Assembly (NCBI RefSeq): GCF_008033235.1
Contig: NZ_CP042432.1
Coordinates: 2,108,001 to 2,172,000, forward strand
From: Anseongella ginsenosidimutans
GTDB taxonomy: Bacteria; Bacteroidota; Bacteroidia; Sphingobacteriales; Sphingobacteriaceae
Length of the DNA: 64,000 nucleotides
Reading direction: 5' to 3'
The notes below the pieces were generated by a model. The model made no database searches. It saw nothing but the letters and a program-made list of their open reading frames with translations, and had not been told where the DNA came from. This document shows, in pieces, positions 29,284-38,829 of this stretch. The translations under genes were made by a program, and so were the position numbers. Within the stretch, counting starts at the first letter, position 1. Each line of letters opens with the position of its first letter.

Positions 29284-30021
29284 TTATCCTGCCGCGCCGG
29301 TCATTTCCGCCAGTTCGCGGGCATTGGCAGGGGCGTATCCGGCCTGGTCATTGTCGAAATAAACAAGTACATCTTTCCCGTTCTTCTGCCAATGGAGACA
29401 CTTTTTCGCCCATTTTTTGAGTGTGCCCTGTGTATACTTTCCCTGGTATTTACCACCCGGCCCGTGCAGCCGCACATAAACGAAATCCGCGCTTACTTCT
29501 TCCGGCGATTGGTGCCCCGCCAGCTCGTAGATGCAGAAGGCGCAGTTATGCTGCCGGAGCAATTCGTAAATATCTTCCCGGTACCAGCTGTGATCACGGA
29601 ACTCAAAGGTATACCGTTGATCTGTAGGAAGAATGTCCAGGAAGCCTTTCAACCGTTCAACATTTACTTTCCAACGGGGCGGGAGCTGGTACAGGACAGG
29701 GCCCGCTTTTTTGCCCAGTTGGCCCACGCCTTCGAAAAAATAATCCAGGTCGTTTGCCGCTACCTTTAGCTTTTTCATATGCGTAACGTAGCGGTTCCCT
29801 TTTATGGAAAACAGGAAGCCGGCCGGAACGGACTTTGCCCAGTTTTCAAAGGTGCCCGGTGAAGGAAGCCGGTAAAAGGGATTATTCAGTTCAACGGTTT
29901 TGAAATGTTTCAGGTAGAACTCCAGCTGCTCATTGTTCCTGGTCCCTTCAGGATAAAAGGGGCCTATCCAATGTTTATAATGCCAGCCCGATGTGCCTAT
30001 GTGAATGCGTCCTTTTTTCAT
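29284..30021 (-). CDS. DUF72 family protein (YecE-like)
   Basis: The protein has 245 residues, close to the family norm, and is cytoplasmic. The N-terminus has the DUF72 hallmark IHIGTSGWHYKHWIGPFYP. Other TIM-barrel strand motifs are TVELNNPFYRLP, FLFSIKGNRYVTH, YTFEFRDHSWY, FVYVRLHGPGGKYQG and VLVYFDNDQAGYAPANA. These proteins adopt a TIM-barrel fold of unknown activity, seemingly related to nucleases or isomerases. The gene stands alone, with about 87 bp to the next - strand gene. Confidence 0.9.
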   Translation of the reverse strand: MKKGRIHIGTSGWHYKHWIGPFYPEGTRNNEQLEFYLKHFKTVELNNPFYRLPSPGTFENWAKSVPAGFLFSIKGNRYVTHMKKLKVAANDLDYFFEGVGQLGKKAGPVLYQLPPRWKVNVERLKGFLDILPTDQRYTFEFRDHSWYREDIYELLRQHNCAFCIYELAGHQSPEEVSADFVYVRLHGPGGKYQGKYTQGTLKKWAKKCLHWQKNGKDVLVYFDNDQAGYAPANARELAEMTGAAG

Positions 30022-30128
30022 GAATATCGTTTTTGCTGCACTGCTTTTTTGCTACATATATGAAAATGCAAAAACATTGCCCGGGCAGGATGGAGTGGCA
30101 CGGTTTTCGAGTAATATATACTGAAACA

Positions 30129-30212
30129 CTCTTTGGGGGTGGTTTTTAATTAAATCTGAGAACATACCCATAGAACCTGATCTGGGTAATGCCAGCGAAG
30201 GAATAAAAAGAG
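30129..30212 (+). promoter_or_regulatory. TPP (THI-element) riboswitch, with no thiamin gene downstream
   Basis: The conserved TPP aptamer parts appear in order: GGGGGTGG (30135-30142), CTGAGA (30156-30161), TACCC (30165-30169), GAACCTGATCTGGGTAATG (30173-30191) and CCAGCGAAGGA (30192-30202). Stem P1 is formed by CUCUUU (30129-30134) and AAAGAG (30207-30212). A strong terminator follows at once, giving a complete off-switch layout. Downstream on the + strand there is only the end of the convergent CinA gene. The first + strand gene is 770 bp away and is not thiamin-related. Assignment is from the consensus read by eye. Confidence 0.9.
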
Positions 30213-30217
30213 GTTTC

Positions 30218-30260
30218 AAGGGTTTTGGTATTCAATATGCCAAAACCCTTCTTTATTTAT
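30218..30260 (+). terminator. Rho-independent terminator directly after the TPP aptamer
   Basis: Stem AAGGGTTTTGG (30218-30228) pairs perfectly with CCAAAACCCTT (30240-30250), extended by further weaker pairs. A small loop closes it and CTTTATTTAT follows. It starts 5 bases after P1, so it is the probable expression platform. It could also stop CinA transcripts coming from the other strand. Confidence 0.85.
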
Positions 30261-30281: not shown

Positions 30282-30797
30282 TTATGCGCTTTTTGTGTCC
30301 GGCGATTGCGTGCCCGGTTGAAGGTGGCTGGAGAGCAGTTCCAGCGCCTGGTTGGTATAATCCAGCTGCACTTCCACCATGGATGTTTTTAAGCTGACCA
30401 ATTTTTTAGCGAATATCACATCATGGCCCTTTGCTATCGCGAGAAAGGCAAATAAGGTGGAAATCCCGCTTCCCGGTGGTTTATTGGCGTAGCCGGTAAT
30501 GCCTATCGCATAATCACTGCTAAATAGACGGTTGCTTCCTATGGCCATTTCTGCCGAAACTTTTTCTGAAATACAATTACATTCTTCTGCATGAATGGGT
30601 TCCACCATTAGATGCCGGGTTTTCTGGCCATTATTATAAGCCGTGATCCCTCCCTGGAAGAAGCGAGTGGCATCTACAGCCGACGAAAAGGCCGCCTGCA
30701 AATAGCCCGAAGTAACGCTTTCCGCCACCGAAACAGTTTGGCAGTTTTCGATAAGGAAATCTTTGATCTTATTTAAGAAAGATATATTGTACAGCAT
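30282..30797 (-). CDS. CinA C-terminal domain protein (PncC-type nicotinamide-nucleotide amidohydrolase)
   Basis: The protein has 171 residues, the size of a stand-alone CinA C-terminal domain. The family motif SVAESVTSGYLQAAFSSA is near the N-terminus. Others are GGITAYNNGQK, CNCISEKVSAEMA and the signature YAIGITGYANKPPG. Active members hydrolyse NMN to nicotinate mononucleotide in pyridine nucleotide salvage. The usual GGx-GLT/S-GxAGP pattern is only loosely kept here, so activity is not certain. The frame extends upstream to 30848, but a TATATTTG promoter box at 30831-30824 lies inside that extension. A start at 30797 (or 30806) is therefore preferred. Confidence 0.85.
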   Translation of the reverse strand: MLYNISFLNKIKDFLIENCQTVSVAESVTSGYLQAAFSSAVDATRFFQGGITAYNNGQKTRHLMVEPIHAEECNCISEKVSAEMAIGSNRLFSSDYAIGITGYANKPPGSGISTLFAFLAIAKGHDVIFAKKLVSLKTSMVEVQLDYTNQALELLSSHLQPGTQSPDTKSA

Positions 30798-30823
30798 AGC
30801 TATCATTTTCCCCACAGGAATTA

Positions 30824-30831
30824 CAAATATA
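30824..30831 (-). promoter_or_regulatory. Candidate -7 box for the CinA-domain gene
   Basis: On the - strand this reads TATATTTG, an exact TAnnTTTG match, 26 bp upstream of the chosen start codon. It decides against the longer reading frame beginning at 30848. No clear -33 element was found. Confidence 0.45.
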
Positions 30832-30959
30832 CTGCCTCTTTTTCCCATGCGATGATACGGACAGGCATCTGCACGAGTGAGGAAGCCGGGCTACATCCGG
30901 GGAATTTGCATACCATGAAAGATCCTGATCCTGCGGCAAAGCCACCCCTGAAACGTCAT

Positions 30960-31026: not shown

Positions 31027-31635
31027 ATGGCAAGTTTTGAAACAGACAAATTAATTCTGATGGATATCGCAGATGCAATCCTTGAAATAAAGGCCGAAGT
31101 GGGTACGCTTGATTTCAGAAGTTTAAATGAGTACAATGAAGACGAATACAGCCAGCAGGCCATCAGTACGCAGCTCGCCCAGATCGGAACGGCTGCAGCC
31201 ATGCTGTCCCAGGAATTCAAGGACGAATATGGAACCATTGACTGGGATGTACTCATTGGGCTGCAGTTCGCCGGAGATGACCAGGAACTGGAGTTGGATA
31301 CGCATTCCGAATGGAGCCTTATAGAATATGACCTTACTGAAATCGGCCAGGAGGTGCTGGACCTCTCCGGTACCGTTCAAAGCCAGGAAGATCTTGAGCG
31401 GGTAAGCCTCAATGAGGAAGACCTCGAAGACCTTACGGAACGCCAGCAGAAGGAAAAAGCCGCCGTTGAAAGCCAGTCGCAGGATGTCGAAGACGAAGCC
31501 GATCAATACACCGAGTACGACCGCGCCAGTGAAGAAGAAGACGATAGCTTCATTGATCAGCGCTACAATAATACTTATATACGGGACGCATCAGACGATT
31601 CAGAAGAAGACGATTCAGAAAAAAGGGATAGCTAA
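31027..31635 (+). CDS. HepT-like domain protein without the RX4HXY motif, with acidic tail
   Basis: The protein has 202 residues. Residues about 10-110 follow the HepT/DUF86 fold pattern: ILMDIADAILEIKAEVGTLDF, then QAISTQLAQIGTAAAMLSQEF, then YGTIDWDVLIGL, then a last helix. HepT toxins need an RX4HXY motif at the position here reading Q80-FAGD-D85-Q-E87, so Arg, His and Tyr are all replaced and RNase activity is not expected. There is no MNT nucleotidyltransferase neighbour. The C-terminal half (about 120-202) is very rich in Glu, Asp, Gln and Ser. It is probably a repurposed HepT-fold protein of unknown role. The next gene, DUF892, is 54 bp downstream. Confidence 0.7.
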   Translation: MASFETDKLILMDIADAILEIKAEVGTLDFRSLNEYNEDEYSQQAISTQLAQIGTAAAMLSQEFKDEYGTIDWDVLIGLQFAGDDQELELDTHSEWSLIEYDLTEIGQEVLDLSGTVQSQEDLERVSLNEEDLEDLTERQQKEKAAVESQSQDVEDEADQYTEYDRASEEEDDSFIDQRYNNTYIRDASDDSEEDDSEKRDS

Positions 31636-35134: not shown

Positions 35135-36292
35135 ATGCGTAAACACGTTTACTTCCTGCTTATTTTGTCATTCCTATTTATTACCGGCTGCAAGCCTGAA
35201 AAAGCCGGCCATCAGTCAGCGGATGAAAGCGAACTGGTCACCATTAAGATCCCGGACTCCTACCAGTCCAGGAAAGATTTCGATTTCGACGATTACTTTT
35301 CGAAGGCGGCTTATATACCCTTAGAAACGACAGAAGAAAGTTTCGTCGATGGCATTAATCGCTTAGCCCTATACAAGGGTAAAATTTATATACTCAGCAA
35401 GGGCAGTAATAGTGTGCTGATCTTCGACGAACGCGGAAAATTCCTGAATAGGGTACGCAGAGAAGGAAGAGGCCCGGGAGAGTACCAAAGCTTAATGGAT
35501 TTTGCGATTGACAAAAAAGGGCAGCGCCTGGTACTTTATTCTGACCGGCCTTATTTGTTCATTTATTGTGACCTGGACGGAGAGTACCTGAATCATATTC
35601 CTTTCAATAACTTGGCTTTTCGCATCGGATACATTAATGGGAAAGTGCAGCTGCTGGTAAATGAGAAAGTGAACCTGCTGACAGAAATATCCGAAGGCAG
35701 CCTGGAACAGAGGACCTTGCTCAATACCTCGGCTACCGACGTTTTCTTTAACAACCGGAGGATAGAACAGCCCGCACTGACTACGGCTTCAAAATTGAAC
35801 CTATTAATGTTTTACTCGGATACCGTTTATACATACGACGGAAAAAAGCTATCTGCGTCCTTTTTTCTTGATTTTGGGGACAAAGATTTCCGGCTTGAAC
35901 CTGAGTTTAAAAACATGGGATTTTTAGAGATATACCAGGAGGTTTTTATCCGTCGTCTGGGATTTCCTGTATATAATTTCAGGGAGATGGAAGACTATGT
36001 GGTCTTTTCGTTTGGGACAATAGGCAACCTGGTGCTTTATCATAAATCAACAGGGAAGACCAGCAAGCACCGGAAATTTGAAAAAGAAGGAGACCCAATG
36101 TGGTTTTCAAATTATTTTGCCCATGACGGCGATGACAATTCCATTTTCACGATTTACGACGCACCCTCATTTATGAAGCGCGCCGCCGAAGCCGTAGAAG
36201 ACGGCAAGGTACTTCCGGAGGACGTGAAAGCCGTCCTGGGGAACTTGTCGGAGCTGGATAACCCGGTGCTGTTGCGATATACGTTTAAGTGA
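35135..36292 (+). CDS. 6-bladed beta-propeller lipoprotein (paralogue 1)
   Basis: The protein has 385 residues with a lipoprotein signal (LFITGC, Cys19). The family landmarks are present: YIPLETTEES in the first blade, REGRGPGEYQSLMDF (the G-K/R-G-P-x-E motif shared by all paralogues here), repeated ...VLIFDERGKFLN strand pairs, and the closing DNPVLLRYTFK. It is the first of a same-strand run of such genes. They are predicted to sit on a membrane as rigid binding scaffolds. Their ligand and job are not known. Confidence 0.88.
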   Translation: MRKHVYFLLILSFLFITGCKPEKAGHQSADESELVTIKIPDSYQSRKDFDFDDYFSKAAYIPLETTEESFVDGINRLALYKGKIYILSKGSNSVLIFDERGKFLNRVRREGRGPGEYQSLMDFAIDKKGQRLVLYSDRPYLFIYCDLDGEYLNHIPFNNLAFRIGYINGKVQLLVNEKVNLLTEISEGSLEQRTLLNTSATDVFFNNRRIEQPALTTASKLNLLMFYSDTVYTYDGKKLSASFFLDFGDKDFRLEPEFKNMGFLEIYQEVFIRRLGFPVYNFREMEDYVVFSFGTIGNLVLYHKSTGKTSKHRKFEKEGDPMWFSNYFAHDGDDNSIFTIYDAPSFMKRAAEAVEDGKVLPEDVKAVLGNLSELDNPVLLRYTFK

Positions 36293-36380
36293 AAAAATGT
36301 CATAGTCCTAAAACCAAGACCTATGTTAAAAAAGAAGTTAATGAAGCCTGCGGCAAACCTACCATCGATCGTCAGGTACA

Positions 36381-36464
36381 TTGCAGGCGTTATCGGAACG
36401 GGAAAGACTGGCACTGGTTAGGATGGGTGATAATCCTATTGTGGTGAAATATGTATTTAAATAA
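36381..36464 (+). pseudogene. C-terminal remnant of a 6-bladed beta-propeller gene
   Basis: The frame reads LQALSERERLALVRMGDNPIVVKYVFK then stop. This is the characteristic end of the propeller lipoproteins (compare DNPVLLRYTFK in the preceding gene). Upstream the frame closes within 70 bp and no signal peptide exists, so only the tail of a deleted paralogue remains between two intact ones. Confidence 0.7.
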
Positions 36465-36466
36465 CA

Positions 36467-37642
36467 ATGAAATGCCCTTATAATTTATTCTTCGCGTTCT
36501 TCCTGCTATCATGTGGAGGAGCGAAGACTGCAAAGCAACCGGTAGATATCAATCCGGTAACGGTAATTGAAATTGATAATTCGGTGTTTGAATACGGACA
36601 GCAGTTTCCGGCGGCCGTCGACTCGCTGCTCACCGATCTTGAATTTATTCCGCTTGAAACAAGGCCGGAGTCGCTCATTGGTATGGTCACAAAACTTTTT
36701 ATCAGGGGAAACAGAATCGTGGTATTTGACAAATTTCAGGCGAACGGCGTGCTGATTTTCGATCGGAATGGCAAGTATGTCAATAAAATAAGAAGCGGGA
36801 AAGGTCCTGGCGAACATACGGAGTTGATCGACTGCTTTGTCAATGAAAAGGGCCATATTGAAACCTATGAGATATTCACTCGAAAAATCAGAGAATATAC
36901 ACTTGACGGCGGGTTTTTAGGCGATAAGCAATTGCCTTCTTTATACCAGGAAGGTTTCGTGAGCATAGGAGATGTTTATTTTCTTGAAAGCCCCTTTAAA
37001 AGAAAGCCGAATGGCTTATACAATCTTTTTCTTTATAACCAATTAACCGGGAAGATTACTGCAAATCTATTTCCTTGCAACCCGGAGGATACGGAGAAAG
37101 ATATATTCGGGACCAGCCATCCCATGGTTGTGTACCAGAGCCGTGTAAATTACTCCATGCCTTATAATGATACCGTTTTTTCTGTCGATACAAGCGGAAA
37201 CGTACAAGCAAGATACGTCATAAAGTATGCTGAAAACGCCCTGCCAACCGGTTTTCTATCGAAGTATAAAGGTATAAATCCCTTCGAAGCCATTGTTGAA
37301 AATAACTATGTCATTACCGCGCAAGTTCAGGAAAGCGAGAACCATCTGGTAATTGATTATATTTTTAATCAAAACACTCCCTATACAGCTATCTACGACA
37401 AACGCACAAAAGAAGTGGTTTTTAATTCAGGCGCCAACGATGGCAGGTTATTCGGGGATTTTCATTTTTTAATGGGACTGCATAAAGTCAGCTCTAATGT
37501 TTTCGCAACGGTGTACCCTCATATTGATTATCCAATGTTATATTTTAATAATAACGCGAGGATGATGAAACAACTAGAACGTTTTCCGGTAGAAGACAAA
37601 TCTATGAGCAACCCGGTGCTGGCGTTGTTCCGGTTAGAATAG
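36467..37642 (+). CDS. 6-bladed beta-propeller lipoprotein (paralogue 2)
   Basis: The protein has 391 residues with a short lipoprotein signal ending FFLLSCGG (Cys16). Family motifs are FIPLETRPES, NGVLIFDRNGKYVNKIRSGKGPGEHTELIDC, and the C-terminal SNPVLALFRLE. It begins 2 bp after the tail of the remnant paralogue, so it was probably co-transcribed with that gene. Base composition is more AT-rich than the first 30 kb. Function unknown, beyond a predicted membrane-anchored propeller. Confidence 0.88.
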   Translation: MKCPYNLFFAFFLLSCGGAKTAKQPVDINPVTVIEIDNSVFEYGQQFPAAVDSLLTDLEFIPLETRPESLIGMVTKLFIRGNRIVVFDKFQANGVLIFDRNGKYVNKIRSGKGPGEHTELIDCFVNEKGHIETYEIFTRKIREYTLDGGFLGDKQLPSLYQEGFVSIGDVYFLESPFKRKPNGLYNLFLYNQLTGKITANLFPCNPEDTEKDIFGTSHPMVVYQSRVNYSMPYNDTVFSVDTSGNVQARYVIKYAENALPTGFLSKYKGINPFEAIVENNYVITAQVQESENHLVIDYIFNQNTPYTAIYDKRTKEVVFNSGANDGRLFGDFHFLMGLHKVSSNVFATVYPHIDYPMLYFNNNARMMKQLERFPVEDKSMSNPVLALFRLE

Positions 37643-37656
37643 TAGGATTGTTAAAT

Positions 37657-38829
37657 ATGAAATTATTTGCTTTTATATCTGTTAATTTTATTTTTTGCAT
37701 TCTGCTGCCGTCCTGCAATGATAACAAACGCAGGAAACCTGACACGGGCAAAGCAGGCATAACTATAGTAGATATTAGCAAGGCCCGAAGCTTACCAGCT
37801 ATAGGCGATGCAATAAAGGAGATTCAATTTATCCCTTTGGAGACGAATGATAGCAGTATTGTTTCGACAGTTAACAAAGCCATTTTGTACGAGAGTGAAA
37901 TATACATACTGGATAAGGAACAGCGGAGTTTAAAAGTGTTTGGAAAAGATGGCAACTATCTTAGATCAATTGGAAGCCTGGGAAAGGGACCTGGCGAGTT
38001 TACAATAATTAACGACTTCATTATTGATCCGCGGGAGAAAAAGATACTGATCCTGAGTAACAACGAGCAGGGGATTTTTGAGTTTAGCCTGCAGGGAAAA
38101 TATATTAGAAGTATAAAGCATCGTTTATATGGCAATTCCTTTAGCAGAATTGATGGTAAGTATTATTATCACATTAATCAGAACGTAAACGACCTGTCAA
38201 AGCACTATAATCTGATAGCTGTTGACAGTTCCGGAAAGGTGCTGGATAGGCTATTCCCGTTTCCAAAATCTTTTGGAGGCGGGTTAAGTTTCTCCGGATT
38301 TATATTTAAAAACAAGAAGGGATTCCTCTATAGTTCTGCGCTCTCAGATACAATTTATCAAATAGCGGCAGCCGGGAATGGGATCTATCCCAAATACGTT
38401 TTTGATTTCGGCGAAAGCGCTATTCCATTGTCAGTGAAAAAGTCCTTTGATTCCTTTATGAAAGAAGGTTTGCGATATTCGTTTTTACATAATTATGTCG
38501 TCGAGTCGGAAGATGTATTGGCTTTTACCTATCAGGACAGAGGAAAAATAATCTCCGCATTTTGCATAAGGGAAAACGGCGCTGGTAATTCATTAATACC
38601 TGTTAAATTCACATTCCCAATTGGCCATCCCATCGGTCTGACCGGGGAAGGAAAAGTTGTTTCATTCATTTCTGTCGCTGGTTTCATAAGCGCTCTCAAA
38701 GCAGGCAAAATTTCAGAGTTATATTTAAAAGAGGAGTTCCCCGAACTATACGAATTACTGCCAACTTTGGAAGTATCTGATAATCCTATATTGACCATCG
38801 TTGAATTTGAAATGCCGCAGAATTTTTAA
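37657..38829 (+). CDS. 6-bladed beta-propeller lipoprotein (paralogue 3)
   Basis: The protein has 390 residues. ATG 37657 is chosen over a TTG at 37648 because it starts a proper lipoprotein signal (FCILLPSCNDN, Cys20). Family motifs are FIPLETNDSS, IGSLGKGPGEFTIINDFIID, repeated blade strands, and the closing SDNPILTIVEFE. It is 14 bp after paralogue 2 and 17 bp before paralogue 4, so it belongs to one operon. Function unknown. Confidence 0.88.
   Translation: MKLFAFISVNFIFCILLPSCNDNKRRKPDTGKAGITIVDISKARSLPAIGDAIKEIQFIPLETNDSSIVSTVNKAILYESEIYILDKEQRSLKVFGKDGNYLRSIGSLGKGPGEFTIINDFIIDPREKKILILSNNEQGIFEFSLQGKYIRSIKHRLYGNSFSRIDGKYYYHINQNVNDLSKHYNLIAVDSSGKVLDRLFPFPKSFGGGLSFSGFIFKNKKGFLYSSALSDTIYQIAAAGNGIYPKYVFDFGESAIPLSVKKSFDSFMKEGLRYSFLHNYVVESEDVLAFTYQDRGKIISAFCIRENGAGNSLIPVKFTFPIGHPIGLTGEGKVVSFISVAGFISALKAGKISELYLKEEFPELYELLPTLEVSDNPILTIVEFEMPQNF

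Follow-up and report, generated by a model that had tools for sequence, protein, structure and literature searches.

An orphan TPP aptamer with its own terminator, possibly a small RNA gene of a family dispersed among the Sphingobacteriaceae

Background

The locus described here raises the question of what a TPP aptamer may do when no thiamin gene lies behind it. It lies in a stretch of 64,000 nucleotides (the window), where the aptamer is followed directly by a terminator. The original prediction for this locus allowed three readings, namely that the thi genes had been lost, that the switch makes a TPP-controlled short RNA, or that it lets readthrough run antisense to a convergent CinA gene. 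A handful of high-scoring, apparently functional aptamers that are not upstream of cognate genes have been noted by Barrick and Breaker (2007), who suggested that such elements are either antisense RNAs acting in trans or pseudo-regulatory sequences that were orphaned not long ago (PMC2258182). A search of open-licence papers gave no account of free-standing TPP RNAs from these bacteria.

Results

The aptamer and the terminator

A single Rfam match was returned by cmscan for the whole window, a TPP riboswitch aptamer (RF00059) at 30125-30220 on the plus strand, with a score of 65 bits (E 1.8e-10) against a gathering score of 54.3 bits. Its core reads GGGGTGG...CTGAGA...ACCC...GAACCTGATCTGG..AATGCCAGCGAAGG; the conserved blocks CTGAGA and GAACCTGATCTGG..AATGCCAGCG are found in the aptamer, and TPP binding is predicted. 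Folding gives an extended P1 helix of 12 pairs, the 5' arm of which (30122-30134, plus strand) is paired with a 3' arm (30207-30218, plus strand) that abuts the terminator; the usual two arms of the TPP aptamer lie between them. The intrinsic terminator (30218-30259, plus strand) consists of a stem (30219-30231 paired with 30237-30249), a TCAAT loop and the U-rich tail CTTTATTTAT. The folding energy corresponds to z = -6.0, and none of 200 shuffles was as stable. The aptamer with its P1 stem, for which a covariance check had been proposed, and the terminator with a U-rich tail directly behind it had therefore been correctly read in the original prediction; the terminator stem, put there at 11 bp, comes to 13-14 bp by folding.

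Flanking genes and the rest of the genome

The next gene is, as had been anticipated, not a thiamin gene but a convergent CinA C-terminal-domain gene (30282-30848, minus strand; PF02464), the end of which lies about 25 nt beyond the terminator; it is an unproven candidate for control by the RNA. A protein search with this gene in the named genomes gave no relative. Upstream, and relevant as context only, is a divergent DUF72 gene (29284-30021, minus strand; PF01904). The HepT-like label given to a gene further downstream is not supported: no Pfam family matches the ORF at 31027-31635, and DUF892 comes next. Elsewhere in the window (35135-38829), three successive plus-strand ORFs of 385, 391 and 393 aa apparently encode related lipoproteins of one family.

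No gene for thiamin synthesis, transport or salvage is found on the same strand downstream of the element in the window or in the sister species, and no conserved short ORF follows the terminator, a 20-codon ORF of the window being absent in the sister species. The window's genome encodes ThiC and contains two more TPP elements: the first, scoring 68 bits, is followed by a thiS-thiC operon, and the second, which at 45 bits stays below the cut-off, by a TonB receptor. Therefore, the orphan is not the sole route to TPP control in this genome.

Conservation in the sister species

The comparison with a sister species is a comparison with the single other genome of the window's genus in the data set, in which the orphan element is present with identical gene order around it. 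The aptamer including P1 is 85.6% identical between the two in the alignment, and the terminator 91%, with an unchanged stem sequence and a different loop. Upstream, identity is 70% at 30076-30128 and 22% at 30022-30075. In contrast, it is 50% just past the terminator and, in the flanking genes, 39-49% at third codon positions. Purifying selection therefore acts on the RNA and its terminator and also on a short stretch upstream.

These results bear on the possibility that a thi or thiamin-transport gene was lost from the locus, the aptamer and terminator being its decaying remains. The lack of a downstream thi gene would agree with such a loss, and so would the fact that the window species is without the thiM-linked TPP switch that the sister has. 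However, decaying remains would not be expected to be so much more conserved than the third codon positions of their neighbours. The sister locus, furthermore, is syntenic and is itself without a thi gene, and in the sister species the orphan coexists with separate TPP switches before thiM, thiC and TonB genes.

Orphan loci in other genomes

Covariance and DNA searches gave 27 further loci with an aptamer and a terminator and without a thi gene; they lie at many unrelated places in genomes of the window's family and of two other families. The window's family is inferred to be the Sphingobacteriaceae from the names of its members Sphingobacterium and Olivibacter; names were obtained by a pattern scan of named genomes, and loci were matched by neighbouring genes and RNA sequence. 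The DNA search, which covered 301 genomes of the family, showed that the arrangement also occurs in other genera, at other places. This recurrence across the family is new relative to the original prediction.

The loci fall into three classes. In class A the terminator abuts P1, while in classes B and C a small hairpin separates the aptamer from the terminator. Class A has 12 members: those of the window and the sister, and ten more from Sphingobacterium (three), Olivibacter (three), genus g6 (three MAGs) and another MAG. All 12 were used to train model R1, so that its scores show a gap rather than an independent discovery. Of 400 family genomes searched with R1, the 12 that carry the training loci score 121-134 bits, and the next best match reaches 85. 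Model R2 matched six loci outside its training set (one each in G044, G127 and G067, and three copies in G364), none of them before a thi gene. With G029 and Flavihumibacter petaseus the total comes to 28 loci, none of which precedes a thiamin gene. Occurrence is sporadic, at 12 of 400 genomes per class, and the RNA is kept in genomes where the ThiC search found none. Six more matches of R1 in a search of the phylum (75-96 bits) were rejected as orphans, being TPP switches before TonB-like genes.

Between non-syntenic copies, homology is limited to a segment from about 35-60 nt before P1 to just past the terminator. The recurrent unit is about 175-200 bp long and consists of the upstream motif, the RNA and the terminator. 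The three G364 loci (L177, C59:14028; L178, C148:3585; L179, C148:6500) are dispersed class C copies in one MAG of the Sphingobacterium group; a pair of these copies, separated by about 3 kb, is 94% identical. In seven g4 genomes (L166-L172) a class B TPP RNA is kept, and the convergent gene facing it is by eye gcvP-like. One class A copy, L136 (G393:C112:6934-7046), has kept the aptamer and P1 but lost the terminator stem and is apparently decaying; it adjoins the same NUDIX-like gene as the S. puteale copy.

Covariation in P1 and the terminator

Among the three g6 orthologues, five of the 12 pairs of P1 differ at both positions, and pairing is kept at 100%. When the pairing is slid by -3 to +2, no such two-sided pair arises; at +3 there are two. 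The seven g4 orthologues show five two-sided changes in the hairpin and terminator and none in P1, and 31 of 500 shuffles reach a count of five; the g4 covariation is weaker evidence than that from g6.

The decaying G393 copy shows the kind of remains that the loss of a thi gene might leave. On the other hand, compensatory changes in P1 among the g6 orthologues and the occurrence of three dispersed copies in one genome are both hard to reconcile with general decay, and the non-syntenic relatives are likewise without thi genes. The loss of thi genes, one of the three readings of the original prediction, is therefore disfavoured and seems improbable. Stand-alone copies at unrelated positions in the same family make a conserved small RNA gene the likelier explanation than a broken switch.

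Comparison with ordinary TPP riboswitches

The orphans were compared with a set of 57 TPP loci, which lie mostly before thi or TonB genes where inspected and may include a few unusual ones. The P1 duplex energy is -13.7 kcal/mol in class A versus -7.7 kcal/mol in the comparison loci (n = 57; p 2e-5). A terminator within 95 nt is found at no fewer than 21 of the 28 orphans versus none of the 57 comparison loci. The seven orphans missed by the terminator scan have a stem that is visible by eye, the tail usually being masked by paired A/U runs. In other Bacteroidota families, five TPP switches before TonB-like receptor genes (L149-L153) have a terminator that begins with AGCCG or GCCG, possibly an attenuator design; this design was not seen before the inspected TonB genes of the window's family.

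Does TPP gate termination?

Transcripts were cut at the terminator loop, and the probability that the 5' arm of the terminator pairs with upstream sequence was calculated. The predicted values are 0.00-0.06 in nine of the 12 class A members (0.05 in the window), with some antiterminator pairing (0.29-0.56) in the other three, namely S. puteale and both Olivibacter at the pgsA-like locus. For five switches before TonB genes in other families the predicted values are 0.20-0.83. An antiterminator formed by GGGUUUU of the terminator arm and the invariant AGAACCU of the aptamer is pairable on paper but was rejected, as it is unpopulated in most class A folds. Since in most of class A the terminator arm lacks a predicted antiterminator partner, TPP probably does not gate termination there.

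This matters for the suggestion that the element is a TPP-controlled attenuator of an antisense RNA, from which, without TPP, readthrough would enter the minus-strand cinA-like gene. The short distance to the convergent cinA end is in its favour, as is a convergent next gene at 20 of the 28 orphans, and there are precedents in Listeria AspocR and the clostridial SAM antisense RNA. However, the window member is among those without a predicted antiterminator, the sequence past the terminator that such a transcript would contain is only half identical to that of the sister, and the convergent gene changes between genera (cinA, LMW phosphatase-like, gcvP and others). Readthrough antisense to the CinA gene, as originally proposed, is accordingly given little credence.

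At the other eight of the 28 loci a same-strand gene that is not a thi gene lies within about 300 nt, and there control in cis is possible. The RNA could then be an attenuator of whichever gene follows, co-opted locus by locus, in line with the pgsA-like neighbour common to two Olivibacter species. The same-strand followers include, besides the pgsA-like gene in Olivibacter, an MFS gene in Flavihumibacter and a hydrate epimerase and a sigma factor in Sphingobacterium, and have no common function; nor can this account be applied to the window, the sister, g6 or g4, all of which have a convergent gene next to the RNA. As a general explanation it is unlikely. At one class C locus (L174, G127:C4), the ORF after the RNA resembles by eye an ECF sigma factor and is followed by a FecR-like gene.

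Upstream sequences

A conserved upstream block at 30067-30121 (plus strand) is the probable promoter, on the basis of TGGCA at 30096-30100, an ATAT stretch and the identity to the sister; its DUF72-proximal part could instead belong to the promoter of the divergent DUF72 gene. The promoter scan gives GTGGCA-N16-TATACT at 30095-30122, a site that is weak on its own because two sites were found versus 2.5 expected.

The sequence TANNTTTG, which we take to be the usual -7 element of this phylum, occurs upstream of 22 of the 57 comparison loci and of none of the 28 orphans. The motif AAC-N16/17-YGTY, which presumably resembles ECF sigma promoters and is a lead in this respect, occurs upstream of 22 of the 28 orphans and four of the 57 comparison loci, with 0.6 expected from shuffles of the orphans; as it was defined on the same sequences in which it was later counted, these figures are descriptive. 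It is absent in the window and the sister species. These two share TGGCAYG with G029 and Flavihumibacter, and a -24-like motif is found at this position in all four loci versus one of the 57 comparison loci. RpoN is encoded in 14 of the 15 genomes checked. A sigma-54 promoter at TGGCAYG is nevertheless no more than a lead, since the -12 GC is missing.

The confinement of homology to a short unit, together with its sporadic and non-syntenic occurrence, would also suit a passive cassette, that is, a short spreading DNA unit carrying an aptamer of no use to the host; the nearly identical neighbouring pair in G364 points the same way. Against this, the g1, g6 and g4 loci are conserved long-term with P1 paired, no transposase or terminal repeats were noticed in an unsystematic look, and the class A pattern has no match in viral contigs. 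This explanation, too, has a low probability.

Discussion

A stand-alone RNA gene accounts for the element better than either a relic or an antisense switch does. With modest confidence, somewhat above even, the locus may be regarded as a small RNA gene, probably trans-acting, and as one of a family of dispersed stand-alone TPP-aptamer RNAs that the Sphingobacteriaceae carry. Of the TPP-controlled short RNA proposed originally, the short RNA stands as the best supported of the three readings, while a length set by TPP does not agree with the apparently constitutive termination.

Transcription of such an RNA would start at or just before 30122 and end at the terminator near 30255, giving a putative product of about 130 nt, in which a TPP aptamer locked by the 12-bp P1 is joined to the terminator hairpin and would presumably bind TPP. 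As P1 and the terminator form without a predicted competitor, termination would occur with or without TPP, and TPP would alter only the conformation or stability of the finished RNA. The finished RNA might then act in trans, binding and retaining a protein or a second RNA; action in trans is the least supported step of the scheme. The RNA is almost wholly paired and has little free sequence for antisense action. This speaks against a simple antisense mechanism, and protein binding or sequestration is therefore the likelier mode. The conserved terminator sequence GGGTTTTGG was considered as a seed for action in trans and rejected; it varies in Olivibacter, and other places in the family give similar matches to the terminator alone.

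The RNA resembles the TPP riboswitch (THI element, RF00059) in aptamer sequence and fold, with a score above the curated cut-off. It differs in having no thiamin gene, a 12-bp P1 and a terminator abutting P1, and the orphans generally differ in having no clear expression platform and an upstream motif of another kind. SreA of Listeria, a trans-acting SAM riboswitch (Loh et al. 2009, via PMC8079631), is a terminated riboswitch RNA that is considered to act as a small RNA. SreA lies upstream of its cognate operon, controls it in cis and is a by-product of it, whereas the window RNA has no cognate operon. The B12 riboswitches AspocR and Rli55, which control a noncoding RNA (PMC8079631), and the SAM-I antisense RNA (PMC2258182) resemble the orphan in that no cognate coding gene is joined to the riboswitch. 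In these systems, however, the ligand sets the transcript length via an antiterminator, whereas the orphan terminator is apparently constitutive and little RNA would lie beyond it. SreA and the Listeria B12 RNAs (PMC8079631) show that the action of a riboswitch RNA can reach further than the mRNA to which it belongs. For the orphaned aptamers of Barrick and Breaker, the relevant part of PMC2258182 describes no conserved family, promoter or dispersed copies.

A broader proposal can be put forward only tentatively and is rather doubtful as it stands: dispersed TPP-sensing RNAs, each with its own non-housekeeping (ECF-like) promoter and terminator, may report TPP status in trans from one to three copies per genome. 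Riboswitches are by definition parts of the mRNAs that they control. If the interpretation as a small RNA gene is true, a metabolite aptamer can turn into a free RNA regulator, and because Sphingobacterium and Olivibacter are among the carriers, the question is directly testable in culturable species.
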